From Umboniibacter marinipuniceus (GTDB taxonomy: Bacteria; Pseudomonadota; Gammaproteobacteria; Pseudomonadales; DSM-25080): DNA of 64,000 bases. How positions within the stretch are numbered: position 1 is the first letter of the stretch; each line of letters starts with the position of its first letter. The notes under the pieces were generated by a model that made no database searches, was not told where the DNA came from, and saw only the letters and a list, made by a program, of their open reading frames with translations. The position numbers were made by a program, and so were the translations under genes. The DNA is taken from assembly GCF_003688415.1 (NCBI RefSeq), contig NZ_REFJ01000002.1, positions 1 to 64,000 of the forward strand, in the 5' to 3' direction. Below are positions 11,604 to 62,803 of this stretch, in pieces.

Positions 11604-11882
11604 TTGATAGCAGGGTATGACGATAAAACGGTGAAGAACCCTAAGTTGCTTGCCGATCGCATCGGTAACCTTCTTTTCATGACGTCGTTGCTAATTCTGG
11701 CCTTATATGTTGATATTGAGTATCACTCAGGAGTCTCGAGTTTTGGCTGGGTGATTGTAATCTCGCTATGTATAGCTCCTGTCTTTCTAGCGTTTCTAGC
11801 GTTTCTAGCGTTTCTAGCGTTTCTAGCGTTTCTAGCGTTTCGAGCGTTTCGAGCGTTTCGACTGGACGCGAAAAATATTTAA
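11604..11882 (+). CDS. small membrane protein with Phe-Leu-Ala repeats
   Basis: A 92-residue protein with two hydrophobic segments (about residues 23-36 and 48-78). From residue 61 it consists of six FLA triplets, two FRA triplets and FRLDAKNI, encoded by a 9-bp tandem repeat. The first 60 codons look like a genuine small membrane protein; the repeat has extended its second helix. Start TTG 11604 is uncertain, with GGAAGA upstream. Because the unit is 9 bp, copy-number change would alter length without frameshift. It precedes a decayed attC. Confidence 0.5.
   Translation: MIAGYDDKTVKNPKLLADRIGNLLFMTSLLILALYVDIEYHSGVSSFGWVIVISLCIAPVFLAFLAFLAFLAFLAFLAFRAFRAFRLDAKNI
11784..11861 (+). repeat. 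9-bp tandem repeat (TTTCTAGCG x6, TTTCGAGCG x2, partial)
   Basis: Six perfect TTTCTAGCG units (11784-11837), two TTTCGAGCG units (11838-11855) and a partial third. It lies in frame within a reading frame and codes FLA/FRA. The copy number probably changes by slippage. Confidence 0.97.
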
Positions 11883-54510: not shown

Positions 54511-54558
54511 TGAGGTCTGGGTTGAGGTCTGGGTTGAGGTCTGGGTTGAGGTCTGGGT
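54511..54558 (+). repeat. 12-bp tandem repeat (TGAGGTCTGGGT x4)
   Basis: Four perfect copies of TGAGGTCTGGGT (54511-54558) in the convergent gap between the zinc-ribbon gene and the TonB receptor gene. No function evident. Confidence 0.97.
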
Positions 54559-54624
54559 TTAAGCTTAAGTGTCACTTAGTCAGCTGTTATCCAATGCGAC
54601 AAAGCCCTCAGATCACTGTAACAA

Positions 54625-54673: not shown

Positions 54674-56704
54674 TTACCAGTTAGCTGTCGCGCTGATGCC
54701 AATTTGGCGAGGCGCACCCAGTTGAACGTAGGTCTCTGTCACGTAGCCGTTAGCTGGATTGTTGCCAAAACTTCCAAAGCCACGTGTTTGCGTTACTTCA
54801 TCGGTTAAGTTCTTAGCCCAAAGCTGCAGTTCCCAGTTGCTTAGCGACCAGTTTAAGCTGGCATTCAGTAAAACGTAGTTCTCCGATTGCGCCTCATGAC
54901 GGGTAGAAAAGTAGAAGGAATCCTTCGCTTCGATACCAACTCTACCGCTAAGTGTTGTTGACAATTGATAGTCCAAGTCTACCGTAGCGCTATAGCTTGG
55001 CGCGTGTGCAGATTCGCGATCGCTTAAACCAGAACTACTATCGTTTAGTTCAGTGTGTAGTAGCCCGATATTGGCCTGAAGCGCTAGGGATTGATTGATG
55101 CGCCATTGTGTGTCTGCTTCAATACCATAACTAACGCCTTCGGCCGAATTCGCGGTGTAATCTACGAACTGGGTGCTGCCATCGGGGCGAGATATCAAGC
55201 GAGATGCCTTAATCTGAACATCTTCACGATCTTGGCGAAAGATGCCGATGCGATAATCAAACTGCTCGCCGTTAGCAATTACGCCCAGTTCGGTATTCCA
55301 GAGTGTCTCGGTTTCGTAACTACGCAGTGCCACGGGGAGCTCAGTGCTACTGTTGAAGCCGCCAGCTTTGTAACCACGTGATACCAAACCGTAAAATCGA
55401 TGGGTATCCGATAGCAGCCATTCGTAGGATAGTTTACCACCCCACATGGTTTCTGACGGGGCGCTGGAGATACCATCTGAATCGCGATAGTCGGCGTCCC
55501 ATTGCTCTACGCGAGCACCCGCTAGTAAGCGAGAATAGTCATTTATTGAAACCGTTGCTTCACCAAATAGTGCATGGGTTGAGGCGTCGAAACTGGATGA
55601 AAAGGGGCCTGCGAGATAGGTGTATTCACGGCGTAGGTCGGTGCCACGTTGAGCAGTGTATAGGCCAATCGTCCAATCTAGAGGGGCATCGTCCTTGGCA
55701 CGAATTCGTACGGTGCCATTATAGGAGTTAGCGTCTCGGAAGTAGGCATCGTAACTCGAGTATTCCCAAGGATGAAAACCAACGTATGACCAGTCCTCAT
55801 CGTAAGCATAGAGTAGATCTGACTGCTGTACCGCCAGGTTCCACTCAATGTTGACTTGACTAAGTCCACGATGAGTTGCCGCCAACGATGCCGCCACAGT
55901 TTCCTGCTGATCTACACCCGGCTGATCCGATTGAGTGGTGTAATCATTATCGAAGTTGAAGGTGTCGTAGCCGTTGTCCATATCAAGGTAGTAGGCGGTC
56001 AGTCGGTATTCAGAGTCCGTTGACGGGGTGTAGTCTATGGCGAGACGAAGGCTGTGTTCTTCTCGGTTCTGGGTTTCGTCAATCACATAGCTATTAAAAT
56101 AGAAACCGTCACTGGTAAGACGCTTCGCGGCAATGCGCACGGCTAGCGCTTCATTGATCGGCGCGTTGGCGGTTACACCGATTTCTCGGGTGTTGAAGCG
56201 TGACGCGCCGAGCTCCAGCGCGAATGACGACGTTTGCTGGGCTCGATTACCTGCTACATAAATCAGGCCGGCTAAGGCATTGGCTCCGTGGAATGTGCCC
56301 TGCGGTCCACGAAGTACCTCTACTTGCTGAGTATCAATAAGATTTGCGCCGGCTGCTAAACCGCTCATTTCAATACCATCTACAACTAGCCCAACAGATG
56401 GGTTAAGTGGCTCAACGAATTGTGACCTAGCACCGATACCTCGAATCTGAAAGAAACGGGGGTTCGAACCGCCGGAAGCAAAGTTTACGTTGGCGAGGCT
56501 ACTAACGGCTTCAGCTAAGTTGGTGGCTTGGCGCTGGTTGATTTCCTCAGCGCTGACGACCGAAGTAGATGCTTCCGAATTACTGAGTAAGCGATCGGAG
56601 TGGTTCGCTGTGACCACAATTTCTTCAATAGCTTGTGACAGAGCAGACGGCGCAGCGGCAATGGATAACATAGCAACGGCAAGCGTGTTTCGAGCAGAAT
56701 TCAT
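54674..56704 (-). CDS. TonB-dependent receptor, probable thiamin(-precursor) uptake
   Basis: The 676-residue receptor has a signal peptide (cleaved after ALSQA, residue 25), TonB-box-like EEIVVTA, plug domain (VEVLRGPQGTFHGANALAGLIYV) and a C-terminal beta-barrel ending SATANW. A TPP riboswitch directly upstream (56771-56852) shows thiamin control, so it probably imports thiamin or a precursor. Start ATG 56704 is chosen because GGAG lies 7 bases before it; the TTG 4 codons upstream is not favoured. Energy comes from TonB-ExbBD. Confidence 0.88.
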   Translation of the reverse strand: MNSARNTLAVAMLSIAAAPSALSQAIEEIVVTANHSDRLLSNSEASTSVVSAEEINQRQATNLAEAVSSLANVNFASGGSNPRFFQIRGIGARSQFVEPLNPSVGLVVDGIEMSGLAAGANLIDTQQVEVLRGPQGTFHGANALAGLIYVAGNRAQQTSSFALELGASRFNTREIGVTANAPINEALAVRIAAKRLTSDGFYFNSYVIDETQNREEHSLRLAIDYTPSTDSEYRLTAYYLDMDNGYDTFNFDNDYTTQSDQPGVDQQETVAASLAATHRGLSQVNIEWNLAVQQSDLLYAYDEDWSYVGFHPWEYSSYDAYFRDANSYNGTVRIRAKDDAPLDWTIGLYTAQRGTDLRREYTYLAGPFSSSFDASTHALFGEATVSINDYSRLLAGARVEQWDADYRDSDGISSAPSETMWGGKLSYEWLLSDTHRFYGLVSRGYKAGGFNSSTELPVALRSYETETLWNTELGVIANGEQFDYRIGIFRQDREDVQIKASRLISRPDGSTQFVDYTANSAEGVSYGIEADTQWRINQSLALQANIGLLHTELNDSSSGLSDRESAHAPSYSATVDLDYQLSTTLSGRVGIEAKDSFYFSTRHEAQSENYVLLNASLNWSLSNWELQLWAKNLTDEVTQTRGFGSFGNNPANGYVTETYVQLGAPRQIGISATANW

Positions 56705-56770
56705 GGTTTTCTCCAATATAACAGATAGAAAACCGGGGTAGACGTATAGAAGGATAACGCAAAAAGAGAG

Positions 56771-56852
56771 ACCTATTCCTACGCCGGTATCACCCGGATC
56801 AGGTTCAAAGGGTTTGTCTAAGACATCTCAGGCTGAGCCACCCCTTAGGTAG
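56771..56852 (-). promoter_or_regulatory. TPP (thiamin pyrophosphate) riboswitch
   Basis: On the minus strand the leader contains the thi-box core: CTGAGA (56826-56831), ACCC/TTTGAACCTGATC (56797-56812) and CCGGGT...ACCGGCGTAGG (56771-56796), with stem P1 in the flanks (CTACCTA / TAGGAATAG). The receptor gene starts 67 bases downstream. It should shut off expression when TPP is plentiful. No terminator is obvious, so translational control is likely. Confidence 0.95.
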
Positions 56853-56968
56853 TTGATTGAGCTTGCAATCAACGGCGCAATCATAACGCTTGAATTGCTC
56901 AGTCGCAACCCACTGAGGTTGGTGATCAACGGATTAACTCCTCGTTGCGCTGCTTTCGGTTCCCTTGA

Positions 56969-58051
56969 TTACGCTGAGTTAACGGCTAATCCGCACTGAG
57001 AAAGTAGCTCGCTAATCAGTTTTGCGTGCGCTCGTTGCGCGGTAATTAAAGTACCTTGCAGCGCATGGCGGTTTTCAATGTAGCGACGCTGCTGTATTGA
57101 TAGGTACGGTAACAGTGGAGTTTCTATTCGGGTTAAAGCGTCATTAAGTTGCCGCCATTGTTGCAGCGTTTCGCTACCAGGCTGTTGAATATTCGTGTTG
57201 AAGTAGTTGACCACTAATCCATGAAACCTTCGCGCCTTTCGAGTGGGCGAGGGCTGAAAGCAAAGTGGGCCAGTGTTGAGCTGGCGAAGTAATATTTGAT
57301 TGGCTGATAAGTAGAAGGCCAATTCTTGCCGAGCGTACCGAAAAAGATAGCTGGCTGCGTTGGAGTGGTATATCTGGCCGAATCGCTCTTCAAGATGAAG
57401 GCGCGACGGCGAGTAGTCACCTGAACTCCAGCGCTCTACCAGCCCACCTAGTTGCCGTAAGCCGGCTAGTCCCGAGCTAATGTTAGTCGGCTGCGGTTGG
57501 AGATTACTGTGGAGCCGGGACCACTCTGGCCCGTTGAGCGTTGCTTGGTAGATAGTGCTTGGCAGTGTGTTGATCTTTGCGGTGCGCAGCTGTGCGAGCT
57601 GATTGGCGAGTTCGGCATGTTCAGCTTCAATAATGGCTATACAGGTGGGGGTTTGTTCAATGACGGTCAACTCGTAGAGCAATTGTTGCGAGGGTTGTTG
57701 GAATTTTCCGAGGTTTGAGTTGCGCAGGGCAATGGTTTGGTGGAGTGCGCAGGGCTTAAGCTGCCAGAATTCAACGAGGCTAATGGATGGTGGCGCTGTT
57801 GCAATGCTTTCAGGTTTGTTTGATGACCACGTTGGTGAGGGAGGCACGCTAACGATTTCCGCGGGTATTTGACTTAACACTGTGCTTAAACGCTCAAGGT
57901 AGTTCGCCCATTGGTCATGGCGAGAAGGGGGTTCAGAGCATGCTGATAGCAGGGTAAAAGCAAATAGTAACGATAATTTGCAGATGATAACTATTATCAC
58001 TTGCGTTTGTTTTTGATAATCATTATCATTTGCGCAACTTGAGGAATTCAT
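56969..58051 (-). CDS. DUF3080 family lipoprotein
   Basis: The 360-residue protein has a lipoprotein signal (FTLLSAC, lipidated Cys about residue 38) and the DUF3080-type sequence W-x-NYLERLSTVL and FHGLVVNYFNTN. Start ATG 58051 has a weak AAGG 9 bases upstream, giving an unusually long signal region (38 residues). GTG 58000 would give a normal 21-residue signal but lacks a ribosome site. Its first codons overlap a Fur box. It is divergent from the FecA-like receptor. Confidence 0.7.
   Translation of the reverse strand: MNSSSCANDNDYQKQTQVIIVIICKLSLLFAFTLLSACSEPPSRHDQWANYLERLSTVLSQIPAEIVSVPPSPTWSSNKPESIATAPPSISLVEFWQLKPCALHQTIALRNSNLGKFQQPSQQLLYELTVIEQTPTCIAIIEAEHAELANQLAQLRTAKINTLPSTIYQATLNGPEWSRLHSNLQPQPTNISSGLAGLRQLGGLVERWSSGDYSPSRLHLEERFGQIYHSNAASYLFRYARQELAFYLSANQILLRQLNTGPLCFQPSPTRKARRFHGLVVNYFNTNIQQPGSETLQQWRQLNDALTRIETPLLPYLSIQQRRYIENRHALQGTLITAQRAHAKLISELLSQCGLAVNSA
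57985..58027. promoter_or_regulatory. two Fur boxes in the divergent promoter region
   Basis: GATAATCATTATC (58015-58027) is a perfect 13-bp palindrome matching the Fur core (GATAATGATAATCATTATC). TGATAACTATTATCA (57985-57999) is a near-palindromic second box. Both lie in the N-terminal codons of the DUF3080 gene and upstream of the receptor start at 58080. Iron repression of the receptor is likely. Confidence 0.85.
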
Positions 58052-58079: not shown

Positions 58080-60293
58080 ATGTTAGTACGTAATCAACTA
58101 AGTTTAGCGATTAGTTTATTAGCAACAACCGGTATGGTTAATGCCGCGCCGGACCTTCAAAGTGCTAATTTGTACTTAGAAGAAACTACGGTTATTGGTC
58201 AGCAGGATCGAGCTAAAGAGATTTCGGCCTCAGCTATTGTCCTAGATGAAACAGATTTGGAAGTCTTCCACAGTCGAGACATTAACAAGATTTTGCTGGA
58301 TGCGCCCGGCGTCTATGTTGCCGCGGAAGAAGGCTGGGGATTACGCCCTAATATTGGCATTCGGGGAACCGGCACCTCTCGCAGCAGTAAGGTAACGATT
58401 CTTGAAGATGGCGTGTTGGTCGCGCCAGCCCCTTACTCCAATCCAGAAGCCTATTACTTTCCTACAACAAGCCGAATGGTAGGCGTAGAAGTACTTAAGG
58501 GATCGCCAATTCTAGAGTATGGCCCAGCTACCATCGGTGGTGTACTGAACCTCGTATCGGCTCAGATTCCTGAAGCGGGCTTTGAGGCCAGAGCGAATGT
58601 TGAGGCGGGTTCATTTGATACTTACCGCGCATTAGCCAACGTGGGTGGTCACGGTGCCAATGTTGGGTGGATGATTGAAGCGCAAAACTTCCAGTCTGGA
58701 GGTTTTCAGGATATTGATCGCAGTGCCCAAGATACTGGCTTTGATAAGAACGACGTCACCGCTAAGTTCCGTGTACACAGTGATAATGTCCCGGGTCGGT
58801 TATATCATCAGCTTGACGTGAAGTATCAGTACGCTGAAGAGACTTCGAATATGTCTTACTTTGGTCTCACTGACGCCGACTTCAACCAGGATGCCGACCG
58901 TCGCTATGGGCTGACCGAGTTGGATGAGATGGATAATAGTCGTGATAGCTACTCAGTAAACTATCAGCTTCGTCTTTCACCTGCTTTCAGCGTTAGTGCA
59001 CTGGCATACCGTAATGAGTTTCAGCGTGATTGGTTCAAGGTGGATAAAATCAACGGTGTATCGGGTAGCTCCATAATAGGCACCATTAACACAAACGGAA
59101 CGGACGCCGCACTATATCAATCGTGGTTGGATGGCTCGGCTGATGTGGCCGATATTGATATTAAGCACAATAACCGTGCCTATGTGTCCGAAGGTGTTCA
59201 GTTGGTGGTTAACGGGAAGTTCGAACTCGGCGGAACGCAACACGATGTGCGTATTGGGGTTCGTGATCACCGCGACGAAATGGATCGCTTCCAGCCTGTT
59301 GAGAGCTTTGCGCAGGTGAATGGCGAACTTATTTTTGTCGATTCCACCGCAGGCAATGTAACGGGTTCGAATAACCGCATTGAGACGGCTGACGCGCTCG
59401 CTTTCTGGTTAATTGACGACATTCAAGTCAGTGAAGCTTTAAAAGTCAATGTGTCTATTCGTAACGAAGATATGGATGTGAGTCGTCGTACCTTTGGTGA
59501 TAACGACCGAGTGAACACCCCAGCAAAGACTACGAATGACGCTAATGAATGGTTATTTGGTACTTCGGCTAGCTATAAGCTCAGCGATGCTTGGACTGTC
59601 TTAGGTGGCGTTCAGCAGGGTATGACGCCCATATCGGGAGGATCGAAGAAGCCCGATGCACCCGAGACCTCAACCAACTATGAGTTAGGCGCTCGCTGGA
59701 CTGCGGCGGCCACTGAAATCTCGATGATCGGATTCTATAGTGACTATGCGAATACCGTGCAATACTGTTCGAATGCGTATCCATGTGATAATGGCGACAC
59801 TCAGGGAGCGCTAAGTTTGGGCGAGTCAGAGGTCATCGGTCTAGAACTCCGTGCTGATACTACGGCACAGTTTAGCCGTCTTAGCATGCCAATCGGCGTT
59901 GCCTATACCTACACTCAAGCTGAAGTAACTGAAGGCGTGAACGGCGCCACCGACGTCAGCGGTGACGAGTGGGCTTATATTCCAGCTAACCAACTTTCAG
60001 CTACGATTGGATTGATTGATGGTGCCACAGGCCTATCCGGATACCTACGCGCTTCATATGTAGAAGGTTCATGCGTTGTGACCGGGTGTAATCGAACTGG
60101 GGATACATTCTCGAAGACTGACGATCAGCTTTCGCTTGACGCCTCGGCGCACTATGCACTCACGGATAGAGCCGACCTCTATTTGAATGTCGATAATCTG
60201 TTGGATGAGCGGACCATCGTCTCGCGCAGCCCTTACGGAGCTCGGGCAAATATGCCTCGTTCATTTACGCTGGGCGTAGACTATAAGTTCTAA
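58080..60293 (+). CDS. TonB-dependent siderophore/ferric receptor (FecA-like)
   Basis: The 737-residue receptor has a signal peptide (residues 1-23), a TonB box region (ETTVIGQQDR), plug (GIRGTGTSRSSKVTILEDGVLVAPAPYSNPEAYYFP, RMVGVEVLKGSPILEYGPATIGGVLNLVS) and a barrel ending LGVDYKF. The plug resembles FecA-type ferric-chelate receptors. Two Fur boxes upstream point to iron limitation as the inducer. There is no FecIR pair here, so regulation is likely Fur alone. Confidence 0.9.
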   Translation: MLVRNQLSLAISLLATTGMVNAAPDLQSANLYLEETTVIGQQDRAKEISASAIVLDETDLEVFHSRDINKILLDAPGVYVAAEEGWGLRPNIGIRGTGTSRSSKVTILEDGVLVAPAPYSNPEAYYFPTTSRMVGVEVLKGSPILEYGPATIGGVLNLVSAQIPEAGFEARANVEAGSFDTYRALANVGGHGANVGWMIEAQNFQSGGFQDIDRSAQDTGFDKNDVTAKFRVHSDNVPGRLYHQLDVKYQYAEETSNMSYFGLTDADFNQDADRRYGLTELDEMDNSRDSYSVNYQLRLSPAFSVSALAYRNEFQRDWFKVDKINGVSGSSIIGTINTNGTDAALYQSWLDGSADVADIDIKHNNRAYVSEGVQLVVNGKFELGGTQHDVRIGVRDHRDEMDRFQPVESFAQVNGELIFVDSTAGNVTGSNNRIETADALAFWLIDDIQVSEALKVNVSIRNEDMDVSRRTFGDNDRVNTPAKTTNDANEWLFGTSASYKLSDAWTVLGGVQQGMTPISGGSKKPDAPETSTNYELGARWTAAATEISMIGFYSDYANTVQYCSNAYPCDNGDTQGALSLGESEVIGLELRADTTAQFSRLSMPIGVAYTYTQAEVTEGVNGATDVSGDEWAYIPANQLSATIGLIDGATGLSGYLRASYVEGSCVVTGCNRTGDTFSKTDDQLSLDASAHYALTDRADLYLNVDNLLDERTIVSRSPYGARANMPRSFTLGVDYKF

Positions 60294-60749: not shown

Positions 60750-62030
60750 ATGACGAAATCCGTGGGTGTTTGGCGTTCGTGGGCGCTAGTAGTGGGTACG
60801 ATGGTAGGATCAGGTGTGTTTCTTCTGCCCGCGGTACTTGCTCCCTATGGCGCTAACAGTCTCTGGGGTTGGATGTTTGCCGGCGCCGGAACGCTCTTTA
60901 TAGCGCTATCACTGGCATCCCTAGCGAGCCATTATCCAAAGGTGGGTGGTCCTTACGCTTATACTAGAGAGGCCTTTGGGCCCTTCGTTGGTTTCCTTAT
61001 TGCATTTGGGTATTGGATATCACTGTGGAGTGGTGTGTCGGCCGTGGCGATTGCGTTTGCTGGCTATACCGATACCTTAGCAGGCGGGAATCTTGGTGCC
61101 TTCGGGCAACTCGCCGTAGCGCTGGGGATTATTGCGGTACTGTGTTTCGTTAATTGCCGGGGTGTTGAATCCGCAAGCGTGGTGCAGCTGGTTACCACAC
61201 TTCTGAAGTTAGTGCCCTTGGTGTTGGTAGGATTTGTGGGCTTTAGTATGGGCGATTGGCATGCCGTTGAGCCGCTCAATCCGGATAATCAGTCTTCCGT
61301 CGCCATGCTGTCTTCAATGGCTTTGCTTATTATGTGGGCCTTTATTGGCGTAGAATCCGCTACTATTCCGGCCGAAGATACCATCAATGCCAAGCGCACC
61401 ATTCCCATTGCTTTGGTTGCCGGTACACTAACGGCCACGGCGGTTTACATTCTAGCGACTTACGGCGTTCAACTATTAATTCCGGCCGAACAGTTGGCGG
61501 TCTCTACCTCGCCGTTCACCGATGCAGCACTTATTCTCTTTGGTCCCGTTGGCGCTTGGTTAATTGGTCTTGGGGCGCTGGTGGCGATCGCTGGTGCACT
61601 CAATGCACTGATATTATTTAGTGGCCAAATGACCTTGGCTCTTGCGAAAGATGGCATCTTCCCGGCTTCATTTGCCAAGCTTAATAAGCGAGGCGTGCCG
61701 ACCACCGGTTTGATTACCGCGTCGTTACTTGCTGCCTTCTTCGTGGCAATGAATTACACCGATGATTTGGTTAGTGCGTTTACCTGGATTATTAAATTAT
61801 CAACCTTGATGGTTATCCTTCCGTATGCGGTCTGTGCATTGGCTGATCTCGTGTTACAACGTCGCAATGGGAATATGACGCCATTGAAAGTGATGGTAGC
61901 GGTGTTGGCGTTAGGGTATTCCATCTTTGCTGTCATTGGCTCCGGTGCGGAGACAGTGTATCTTGGTGGGTTACTTCTGGTGGCTGGGATGCCGCTGTAT
62001 TTTGCGCTAAGATCTGGCCATAAAAAATAG
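60750..62030 (+). CDS. APC family amino-acid permease
   Basis: The 426-residue transporter has 12 helices and the APC pattern: RSWALVVGTMVGSGVFLLPAVLAPYG (the Gly-Ser-Gly substrate site in helix 1), GGPYAYTREAFGPFVGFLIAF, IMWAFIGVESATIPAEDTINAKRTIP. This resembles ArcD/PotE/AdiC-type carriers that move basic amino acids or polyamines. The DDAH-like gene starts 8 bases downstream, so the substrate may be arginine or a methylarginine/citrulline. Confidence 0.92.
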   Translation: MTKSVGVWRSWALVVGTMVGSGVFLLPAVLAPYGANSLWGWMFAGAGTLFIALSLASLASHYPKVGGPYAYTREAFGPFVGFLIAFGYWISLWSGVSAVAIAFAGYTDTLAGGNLGAFGQLAVALGIIAVLCFVNCRGVESASVVQLVTTLLKLVPLVLVGFVGFSMGDWHAVEPLNPDNQSSVAMLSSMALLIMWAFIGVESATIPAEDTINAKRTIPIALVAGTLTATAVYILATYGVQLLIPAEQLAVSTSPFTDAALILFGPVGAWLIGLGALVAIAGALNALILFSGQMTLALAKDGIFPASFAKLNKRGVPTTGLITASLLAAFFVAMNYTDDLVSAFTWIIKLSTLMVILPYAVCALADLVLQRRNGNMTPLKVMVAVLALGYSIFAVIGSGAETVYLGGLLLVAGMPLYFALRSGHKK

Positions 62031-62038
62031 GTGAAAAT

Positions 62039-62803
62039 ATGATGTTCAAACAGGCGATAGTTCGTAAACCGTCACGTTCGATCAGCGAAGGCTTGACCGG
62101 CGCTGATCTAGGCACCCCAGATTACCAGCAGTCGTTACTGCAACACCAAAGTTATACCAATATGCTCACAGCCCTAGGTTTGACGGTAACACAGTTGCCA
62201 GCACTCGATGACTTAGCCGATGCAACGTTCGTGGAGGATGTTGCCTTGCTCGTTGATGACGTAGCAGTATTAACTCGTCCTGGCGCTAAGAGTCGCGAGC
62301 CTGAAGTTTCCTTCATGGCGGAAACCATCAGGGAGTTCTTTACTGAGGTTCACACTATTACTCACCCTGGCACGCTGGAAGCTGGTGATATTATGCGCGT
62401 TGAAAATAAGCTCTATGTTGGCTTGTCGGATCGCACCAACGAAGCAGGTGTGGCGCAATTGGCGAGTATCTTCGCGCCGCATGGTGTAGATGTCATTCGA
62501 GTGAAGATGTCGGAGATGCTTCACCTGAAAACTGGCGTAAACTATCTCAGTAATAAACAAATGCTAGTCTGTGGCGAATTTGTAGGTCATCCTGCCTTCG
62601 CTGATTACGAGTGTTTTGAAATTCCGGAGGGTGAAGAGTACGCCGCTAACTCTCTGTGGATTAATGGTTCTGTTATTGTGCCAACCGGCTTCGATAAAAC
62701 GGCAAGTTTGATTGAAGAGCTCGGTTATCCAGTGGTTCGTGTTGATACTACTGAGTTTAGAAAAATTGATGGTGGTTTGAGCTGCCTGAGCTTGCGATTT
62801 TAG
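62039..62803 (+). CDS. dimethylarginine dimethylaminohydrolase-like enzyme
   Basis: The 254-residue protein belongs to the guanidine-modifying (arginine deiminase/DDAH) superfamily: FVEDVALLVDDVAVLTRPGA (acidic substrate site), HPGTLEAGDIMRV, LHLKTGVNYL (His) and GGLSCLSLRF with catalytic Cys249. DDAH hydrolyses methylated arginine to citrulline plus methylamine. Cotranscribed with the permease; the pair suggests scavenging of methylarginines. Arginine deiminase proper is longer (about 400 residues). Confidence 0.9.
   Translation: MMFKQAIVRKPSRSISEGLTGADLGTPDYQQSLLQHQSYTNMLTALGLTVTQLPALDDLADATFVEDVALLVDDVAVLTRPGAKSREPEVSFMAETIREFFTEVHTITHPGTLEAGDIMRVENKLYVGLSDRTNEAGVAQLASIFAPHGVDVIRVKMSEMLHLKTGVNYLSNKQMLVCGEFVGHPAFADYECFEIPEGEEYAANSLWINGSVIVPTGFDKTASLIEELGYPVVRVDTTEFRKIDGGLSCLSLRF

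Follow-up and report, generated by a model that had tools for sequence, protein, structure and literature searches.

A TPP riboswitch precedes a TonB-dependent receptor gene

The window analysed here is a stretch of 64,000 nucleotides (64 kb), and an Rfam scan of both its strands returned a single family above its cut-off, the TPP riboswitch (RF00059). The match is full length (model positions 1-105 of 105), scores 77.4 bits at E 1.5e-13, with the gathering cut-off at 54.3, and places a TPP aptamer, or thi-box, at 56759-56855 on the minus strand; it is the only RF00059 copy detected genome-wide. The 3′ end of the aptamer lies 54 bases upstream of the ATG (56704) of a gene for a TonB-dependent outer-membrane receptor on the same strand (54674-56704). 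The open reading frame, whose stop end is at 54674, could start as early as a TTG at 56716; the ATG at 56704 is the choice that fits both a Shine-Dalgarno site (GGAG, 56711-56714) and the relatives, and yields by count a protein of 676 residues. Protein analyses were run on 54674-56701, without the first Met, and residue numbers refer to this 675-residue sequence. Its Plug (PF07715, 64.1 bits) and TonB_dep_Rec_b-barrel (PF00593, 90.2 bits) domains both score above the Pfam cut-offs, and with its membership of receptor family A1 and the riboswitch linkage described below they mark it as a predicted thiamin importer of the omr1/OMthi type.

The sequence-only reading had seen a thi-box preceding a TonB receptor gene here, and this observation is correct. 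Chance as the source of the aptamer match is ruled out by the RF00059 score and by the recurrence of the element in relatives. The locus itself, bounded in that reading at 54674-56852, stands as well, except that its outer end falls 3 bases short of the aptamer 5′ end at 56855. No thiamin synthesis genes were said to lie nearby, and indeed none was found among the four neighbours scanned with HMMs, which are a DUF3080 gene, a second TonB receptor, an amino-acid permease and a dimethylargininase-like protein.

The DUF3080 gene (56969-58051, minus strand) adjoins the predicted thiamin receptor, and the second TonB receptor (58080-60293, plus strand) diverges from this DUF3080 gene. The top equivalog model for this second receptor is FecA, at 68.3 of 1100 bits and hence far under the cut-off, and its neighbourhood is common to the window and one relative (G002, L077).

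Fold and invariant loops of the receptor

The receptor model (pLDDT 77.6, pTM 0.80) has as its nearest solved structure the yersiniabactin receptor FyuA, with TM scores of 0.79 by query and 0.84 by target at 20% identity. The best 50 matches of the structure search are TonB receptors of many substrates, and the search therefore indicates the fold and not the substrate. Three loops of the model are long (198-212, 246-261 and 302-316), and their alternation with short turns suggests that they face outward. Outside the plug, 39 residues are invariant, and 16 of these lie in the long loops or within 4 residues of them: G199, N203, T210 and E215 at the first, N243, G244, Y245, D246, D251, P261, G262 and D264 at the second, and Y298, D301, D303 and W304 at the third. 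The stretch holding the invariant NGYD, D251, PGxD and YxxDxDW is unaligned in FyuA except for its last residues. Such acidic and aromatic loop residues would be suited to a cationic aromatic ligand.

Linkage of riboswitch and receptor in relatives

We compared 56 genomes, namely the window's own, 2 of its genus and 53 of its order. A TPP riboswitch was found at E<=0.001 in 36 of them, at 45 places, and 30 of these places were fetched as loci and read for their first downstream open reading frame. This frame encoded a receptor of the window type at 14 loci and ThiC at 11, the latter positions agreeing with the ThiC search; the remainder, named by reading the sequences, consisted of 2 thiD-like frames followed by an ABC ATPase (L019, L024), 1 ThiY-like frame (L030) and 2 ThiB-like ones.

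The receptor profile (A1) was made of 18 receptors, and family membership was called at E<=1e-90. Receptors of this family occur in 17 of the 56 genomes with a TPP riboswitch directly upstream in 17/17, and the search of these genomes found no family member without one. This linkage is partly built in, because the profile itself contains 16 of the 17 receptors and most of its rows were chosen for following a TPP riboswitch; a sample of the class gives a fairer figure. In that draw of 276 genomes, for which a completeness of at least 90% was requested, the family was found in 15 genomes besides the window's own, with the riboswitch at the gene in 14/15, and none of these 15 receptors belonged to the A1 profile. 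The exception (L107, G096:C123) has two tRNA genes upstream, and its regulation may have disappeared or been altered. The riboswitch is also present at the receptor gene in two relatives, a Cocleimonas MAG (L002) and an Arenicellaceae MAG (L003), and in the latter PnuT-like and kinase-like genes adjoin it.

Comparison of carriers and non-carriers of the receptor shows that ThiC, ThiE and ThiG are all absent in 15/17 of the former versus 4/39 of the latter (G001, G033, G049 and G054), with a Fisher p of 2.7e-8 obtained on relatives that are not independent draws, the 17 carriers spanning 12 of 46 families. Among genomes that are at least 90% complete and at most 5% contaminated, all three are missing from 14/16 carriers versus 2/33 others. 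For ThiG, absence was scored by strong matches, and 7 of the 15 receptor genomes so scored hold matches below the cut-off, of 19.1-22.4 bits. Over the 56 genomes ThiG gives 35 strong matches, 44 at E<=0.001 and 36 above the cut-off, the 36th genome over the cut-off being G054, with weak pieces only (24.8 bits together). Two carriers, G025 and G040, also hold ThiC, ThiE and ThiG, and therefore the presence of the receptor is no proof of auxotrophy. Since 15 of the 17 carriers are without the three proteins, the receptor family nevertheless seems to be of use as a genomic marker for dependence on the complete vitamin, as opposed to a precursor.

A gene of the PnuC/PnuT family lies directly downstream of the receptor gene, on the same strand, in 11 of the 17 carriers (G005, G010, G012, G025, G026, G040, G043, G048, G052, G053 and G055). 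As for the other carriers, a kinase gene directly follows the receptor in G042, the PnuC-family gene is 0.8 kb farther on from the receptor in G011, receptor and transporter are on separate contigs and close to contig ends in G014, and the two are apart in G000 and G002. In G041 the PnuC-family gene, located on a separate contig next to a NadR-like gene (by reading of the sequence), probably encodes a true PnuC; because of this copy we do not claim PnuT in every receptor genome.

In G001, of the same genus as the window, the transporter and kinase genes are kept (L057) and we found no match for ThiC, ThiE or ThiG, no receptor and no TPP riboswitch. The missing receptor and riboswitch are perhaps a gap, because this assembly is 87% complete and in 310 contigs.

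Thiamin genes in the genome of the window

The genome of the window measures 2.69 Mb and is 99.42% complete with 0.02% contamination; the window lies on contig C2. At E<=0.001 it yielded 0 matches for ThiC, for ThiE/TenI (TMP-TENI) and for ThiG, and equal searches gave strong matches in 34/56, 37/56 and 35/56 genomes, respectively. The bacterium hence seems unable to make vitamin B1, as far as its gene content tells. The same genome does contain ThiL (C1:377649-378596, 275.4 bits) and one PnuC-family protein (C1:369789-370316, 152.9 bits). The receptor gene is on C2 and the PnuC/PnuT-family gene apart from it on C1, and no TPP riboswitch over the cut-off was found in the 14 kb around this transporter gene (L055). 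Thiamin pyrophosphokinase was considered for the final step and rejected: its Pfam catalytic domain (TPK_catalytic) has no match in any of the 56 genomes, and 7 of 14 control genomes were positive.

A genome search for thiC, thiD and thiE had been proposed as the way to decide which moiety is imported, and the lack of matches for ThiC and ThiE favours intact thiamin. The broader claim, that the organism salvages thiamin or precursors, is supported and can be narrowed. Because ThiC, ThiE/TenI and ThiG are unmatched while ThiL is present along with an APH-family kinase and a transporter of the PnuC/PnuT family, the receptor most probably takes up thiamin whole, as such or in phosphorylated form, and not a precursor. 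Uptake of precursors alone would be useless to a cell in which a TMP synthase of the ThiE family is missing.

The transporter and the adjoining kinase

The transporter takes the NCBIfam name PnuC (TIGR01528) at 59.3 bits, above a cut-off of 42.45. Its identity is 43% to the operon members of G026 and G012 and 28% to the G041 copy linked to the NadR-like gene. In a small tree, which contains a G033 row built on a wrong open reading frame and to be disregarded, and from which the PnuC protein of G027 was left out, the transporters of the genus were not cleanly separated from the NadR-linked ones. No solved relative of the transporter came up at E<=0.001.

The open reading frame that follows the transporter gene overlaps it and encodes a kinase of the APH family (47.3 bits, cut-off 23.2). 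Scored against ThiK (TIGR02721) this kinase reaches 45.9 bits, under the cut-off of 299.45, and does not qualify as ThiK by that model; the guanitoxin kinase model GntI scores higher, at 63.3 of 357 bits, again far below its cut-off. We use the label APH-family kinase because the ThiK cut-off is missed and GntI scores higher. The H-x-D-x4-N and D residues of such kinases are invariant in 13 of 13 aligned proteins, that of the window's genome included, and we predict that it acts like ThiK.

A PnuC/PnuT-family gene beside an APH-kinase-like frame, the kinases being recognized by reading, was also seen at L049 (G033) and L050 (G032), in genomes without the receptor family. G032 has ThiC, ThiE and ThiG, and G033 has none of them.

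A proposed switch in the leader RNA

The leader of the receptor gene contains a candidate hairpin that would mask the Shine-Dalgarno site. Its 5′ arm GGUUUUCU (56727-56734, minus strand) would pair with the 3′ arm AGAAAACC (56705-56712, minus strand), which covers part of the Shine-Dalgarno site and ends at the start codon. Most usable receptor leaders terminate in a hairpin whose 3′ arm spans the Shine-Dalgarno region up to the start codon, and across the relatives the letters of the arms vary with the pairing preserved (GGUCUCU/AGAGACC, GGUUCUUUU/AAAAGGAACC and GGAUUUCUU/AAGGAAUCC). From 33 leaders, 5 were left out (L104, L108, L111, L109 and L021) for which no ATG with a Shine-Dalgarno site was picked. 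Measured against dinucleotide shuffles, hairpin pairing reached p<0.05 in 7 of the 28 others, with a combined p of 1.4e-7 that overstates the evidence because the leaders are related. The hairpin of the window on its own gave p = 0.085, with nothing exceptional in its local fold (z -0.39). The thiC leaders used as a control gave 1/11 at p<0.05 and a combined p of 0.16, on small numbers.

By the 5′ arm there is often a CCGG(G/A)UC or a variant of it, the complement of the aptamer strand GAUCCGG, and CCGG is present in 18 of 24 leaders. The CCGG of the window (56733-56736, minus strand), the putative switching strand, overlaps the 5′ arm of the hairpin, and the aptamer strand GAUCCGG (56794-56800, minus strand) is its proposed partner without TPP. 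Four of the 28 leaders (L103, L101, L099 and L100) showed no P4 motif by pattern, which leaves 24 for a test of complementarity between aptamer and leader. It was significant at p<0.05 in 16/24, with a combined p of 1.8e-16 that relatedness likewise inflates, and the best complementary stretch overlapped the 5′ hairpin arm in 20/24 leaders and in 15 of the 16 significant ones. For the window alone p was 0.087, and for the thiC control, with 6 of 11 leaders usable and hence small numbers, it was 0.25.

When the switch was modelled energetically, the 8 leaders used gave an equivocal picture. Enforcing the alternative pairing on the window leader gave -31.9 versus -39.1 kcal/mol for the free fold, about 7 worse, and did not fully open the start site. 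The alternative pairing was the minimum-energy fold in G002 (L014) and G011 (L015), and in the other five leaders the free fold was better by 1.3 to 5.1 kcal/mol. A simple consensus scan found no terminator-like site on the minus strand at 56600-57000. Overall, the design of the leader suggests translational control, with a signal that is strong across relatives and weak in the window copy alone.

A probable thiamin receptor under feedback by TPP

The reading that best accounts for these results, to which we give a probability of about 0.85, is that the gene encodes a thiamin-uptake receptor under feedback by its own end product TPP, with intact thiamin or thiamin phosphate as the cargo and with a translational switch. 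We infer that TPP binds the aptamer and that control is exerted on translation and not on transcription. When TPP is low, the aptamer strand GAUCCGG would hold the 5′ arm of the hairpin, so that the ribosome-binding site and start site of the leader RNA are accessible and the outer-membrane receptor can be translated. The substrates that we infer for the receptor and the kinase define the rest of the route: the receptor would pull scarce intact thiamin or thiamin phosphate across the outer membrane with TonB energy, the PnuT-type permease encoded on the other contig would move thiamin into the cytoplasm, the APH-family kinase adjoining the permease would turn it into thiamin monophosphate, and ThiL would then make TPP. 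With ample TPP the aptamer would stay folded, and the leader strand thereby freed would let the hairpin close over the Shine-Dalgarno site as far as the start codon, which would stop translation.

We consider it improbable that the cargo is instead a precursor of thiamin (HMP or thiazole) or one of its breakdown products. Precursor transporters are also found under TPP riboswitches, such as the thiD-like and ABC ATPase loci and the ThiY-like locus among the relatives. However, the genome gave no match to ThiE/TenI, the type of TMP synthase covered by the search, and would be unable to link precursors by that route; the two genomes of the precursor-salvage type without ThiC (G016 and G051) retain ThiE-family matches; and the receptor has as its operon partners a transporter of the PnuC/PnuT family and a kinase of the APH family. 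A receptor for an iron-siderophore or some other compound, with the riboswitch incidental or there for another reason, is very unlikely. The similarity to FyuA points that way, as does the top NCBIfam match, TonB-siderophor, which reaches 142.5 bits and stays below its cut-off of 223.5. Against it stand the riboswitch linkage in 17/17 relatives and in 14/15 further members of the class, the adjoining pnuT in 11/17 and the strong association with lost thiamin synthesis, and the invariant NGYD, D251, PGxD and YxxDxDW sit in or by the loops of the model, nearly all in the part unaligned in FyuA.

The function could also be as proposed while TPP acts by terminating transcription, which we judge unlikely. 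The window fold lacks a clean toggle, as termination would allow, but the scan of 56600-57000 returned no terminator-like site, the hairpin, which reaches right up to the start codon, lacks a U-run, and the hairpin signal recurs across the 28 leaders. Returning to translational feedback on thiamin uptake, it is possible, though we lean against it, that Gammaproteobacteria have their own complete route for intact thiamin, made of PnuT, ThiL, APH-family thiamin kinases that form a new clade, and an omr1-type receptor whose conserved acidic and aromatic outer loops (NGYD...PGxD...YDEDW) recognise the cationic, aromatic vitamin, together with a lineage-specific translational switch in which the 5′ arm of the start-site hairpin is contested by the aptamer strand GAUCCGG, and with a regulon shrunk in the window's genus to the outer-membrane gate. 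We lower the odds of this wider proposal because GntI, and not ThiK, is the best model for the window kinase.

Relation to known systems

Natural waters contain little vitamin B1, and many bacteria rely on others for their supply. The idea of a predicted thiamin TonB transporter reportedly originates with Rodionov et al. 2002. A later paper has such predicted transporters encoded with pnuT, the assignment still to be proven (PMC2771747), and a 2013 survey of 564 TPP sites states that in some lineages the abundance of TPP-regulated transporters tracks predicted thiamin auxotrophy (PMC3766115). The closest description is that of omr1, which is listed as potential B1 transport and, in two clusters each of SAR86 and Flavobacteriales, lies near a TPP riboswitch (PMC10881298), and which is transcribed by Baltic Cellvibrionales described as B1 consumers, its specificity being marked unclear (PMC12442306). 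Like the window receptor, omr1 of SAR86, Flavobacteriales and Cellvibrionales is a TonB-dependent potential B1 transporter near a TPP riboswitch, and, going by the published description, the two are probably one family.

The arrangement can also be likened to OMthi (BT2390) of Bacteroides thetaiotaomicron with its pnuT-tnr3, which combines a TPP riboswitch, a TonB-dependent outer-membrane thiamin transporter and the inner-membrane transporter PnuT, the proposed counterparts here being the aptamer, the receptor and the PnuC/PnuT-family protein. Deletion of OMthi or PnuT in a biosynthesis mutant raised the thiamin need about tenfold (PMC5613172). Such receptors had been called scarcely studied experimentally, which is fair for Gammaproteobacteria in the literature covered; the Bacteroides receptor, however, has been tested by deletion in the report just cited, and the idea itself is old. 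In Bacteroides the thiamin pyrophosphokinase Tnr3 completes the route, whereas the window's genome has an APH-family kinase beside pnuT plus ThiL, and its receptor and pnuT are split, unlike in the OMthi system. In E. coli, thiM is a kinase gene of thiamin salvage, and its riboswitch controls a kinase gene where that of the window precedes a receptor gene. The proposed window switch resembles it in mode, both being translational: the thiM Shine-Dalgarno site is masked upon ligand binding (PMC3280964).

The locus illustrates well an arrangement, omr1/OMthi, that earlier publications had predicted, and is no new kind of system. What is added here is the version with an APH kinase plus ThiL, the split regulon and the proposed switch. 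The open-licence literature searched showed neither the gammaproteobacterial kinase linkage nor the leader design, which argues weakly that they are unreported. Direct tests are possible on the loop residues, the kinase and the proposed switch.

Other features of the window

The permease gene (60750-62030) resembles basic amino acid antiporters (253.7 bits, cut-off 409) and is directly followed by the gene for the dimethylargininase-like protein (62039-62803; 293.2 bits, cut-off 450), a pair that perhaps serves the use of methylated arginine. On the 3′ side of the receptor gene, at 54511-54559, there is a perfect 12-bp tandem repeat of TGAGGTCTGGGT in 4.1 copies, and exact copies of the 12-mer GAGGTCTGGGTT within the window are confined to it. 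A 9-bp tandem repeat of TTTCTAGCG occupies 11784-11859, with 8.4 copies and a 98% match.
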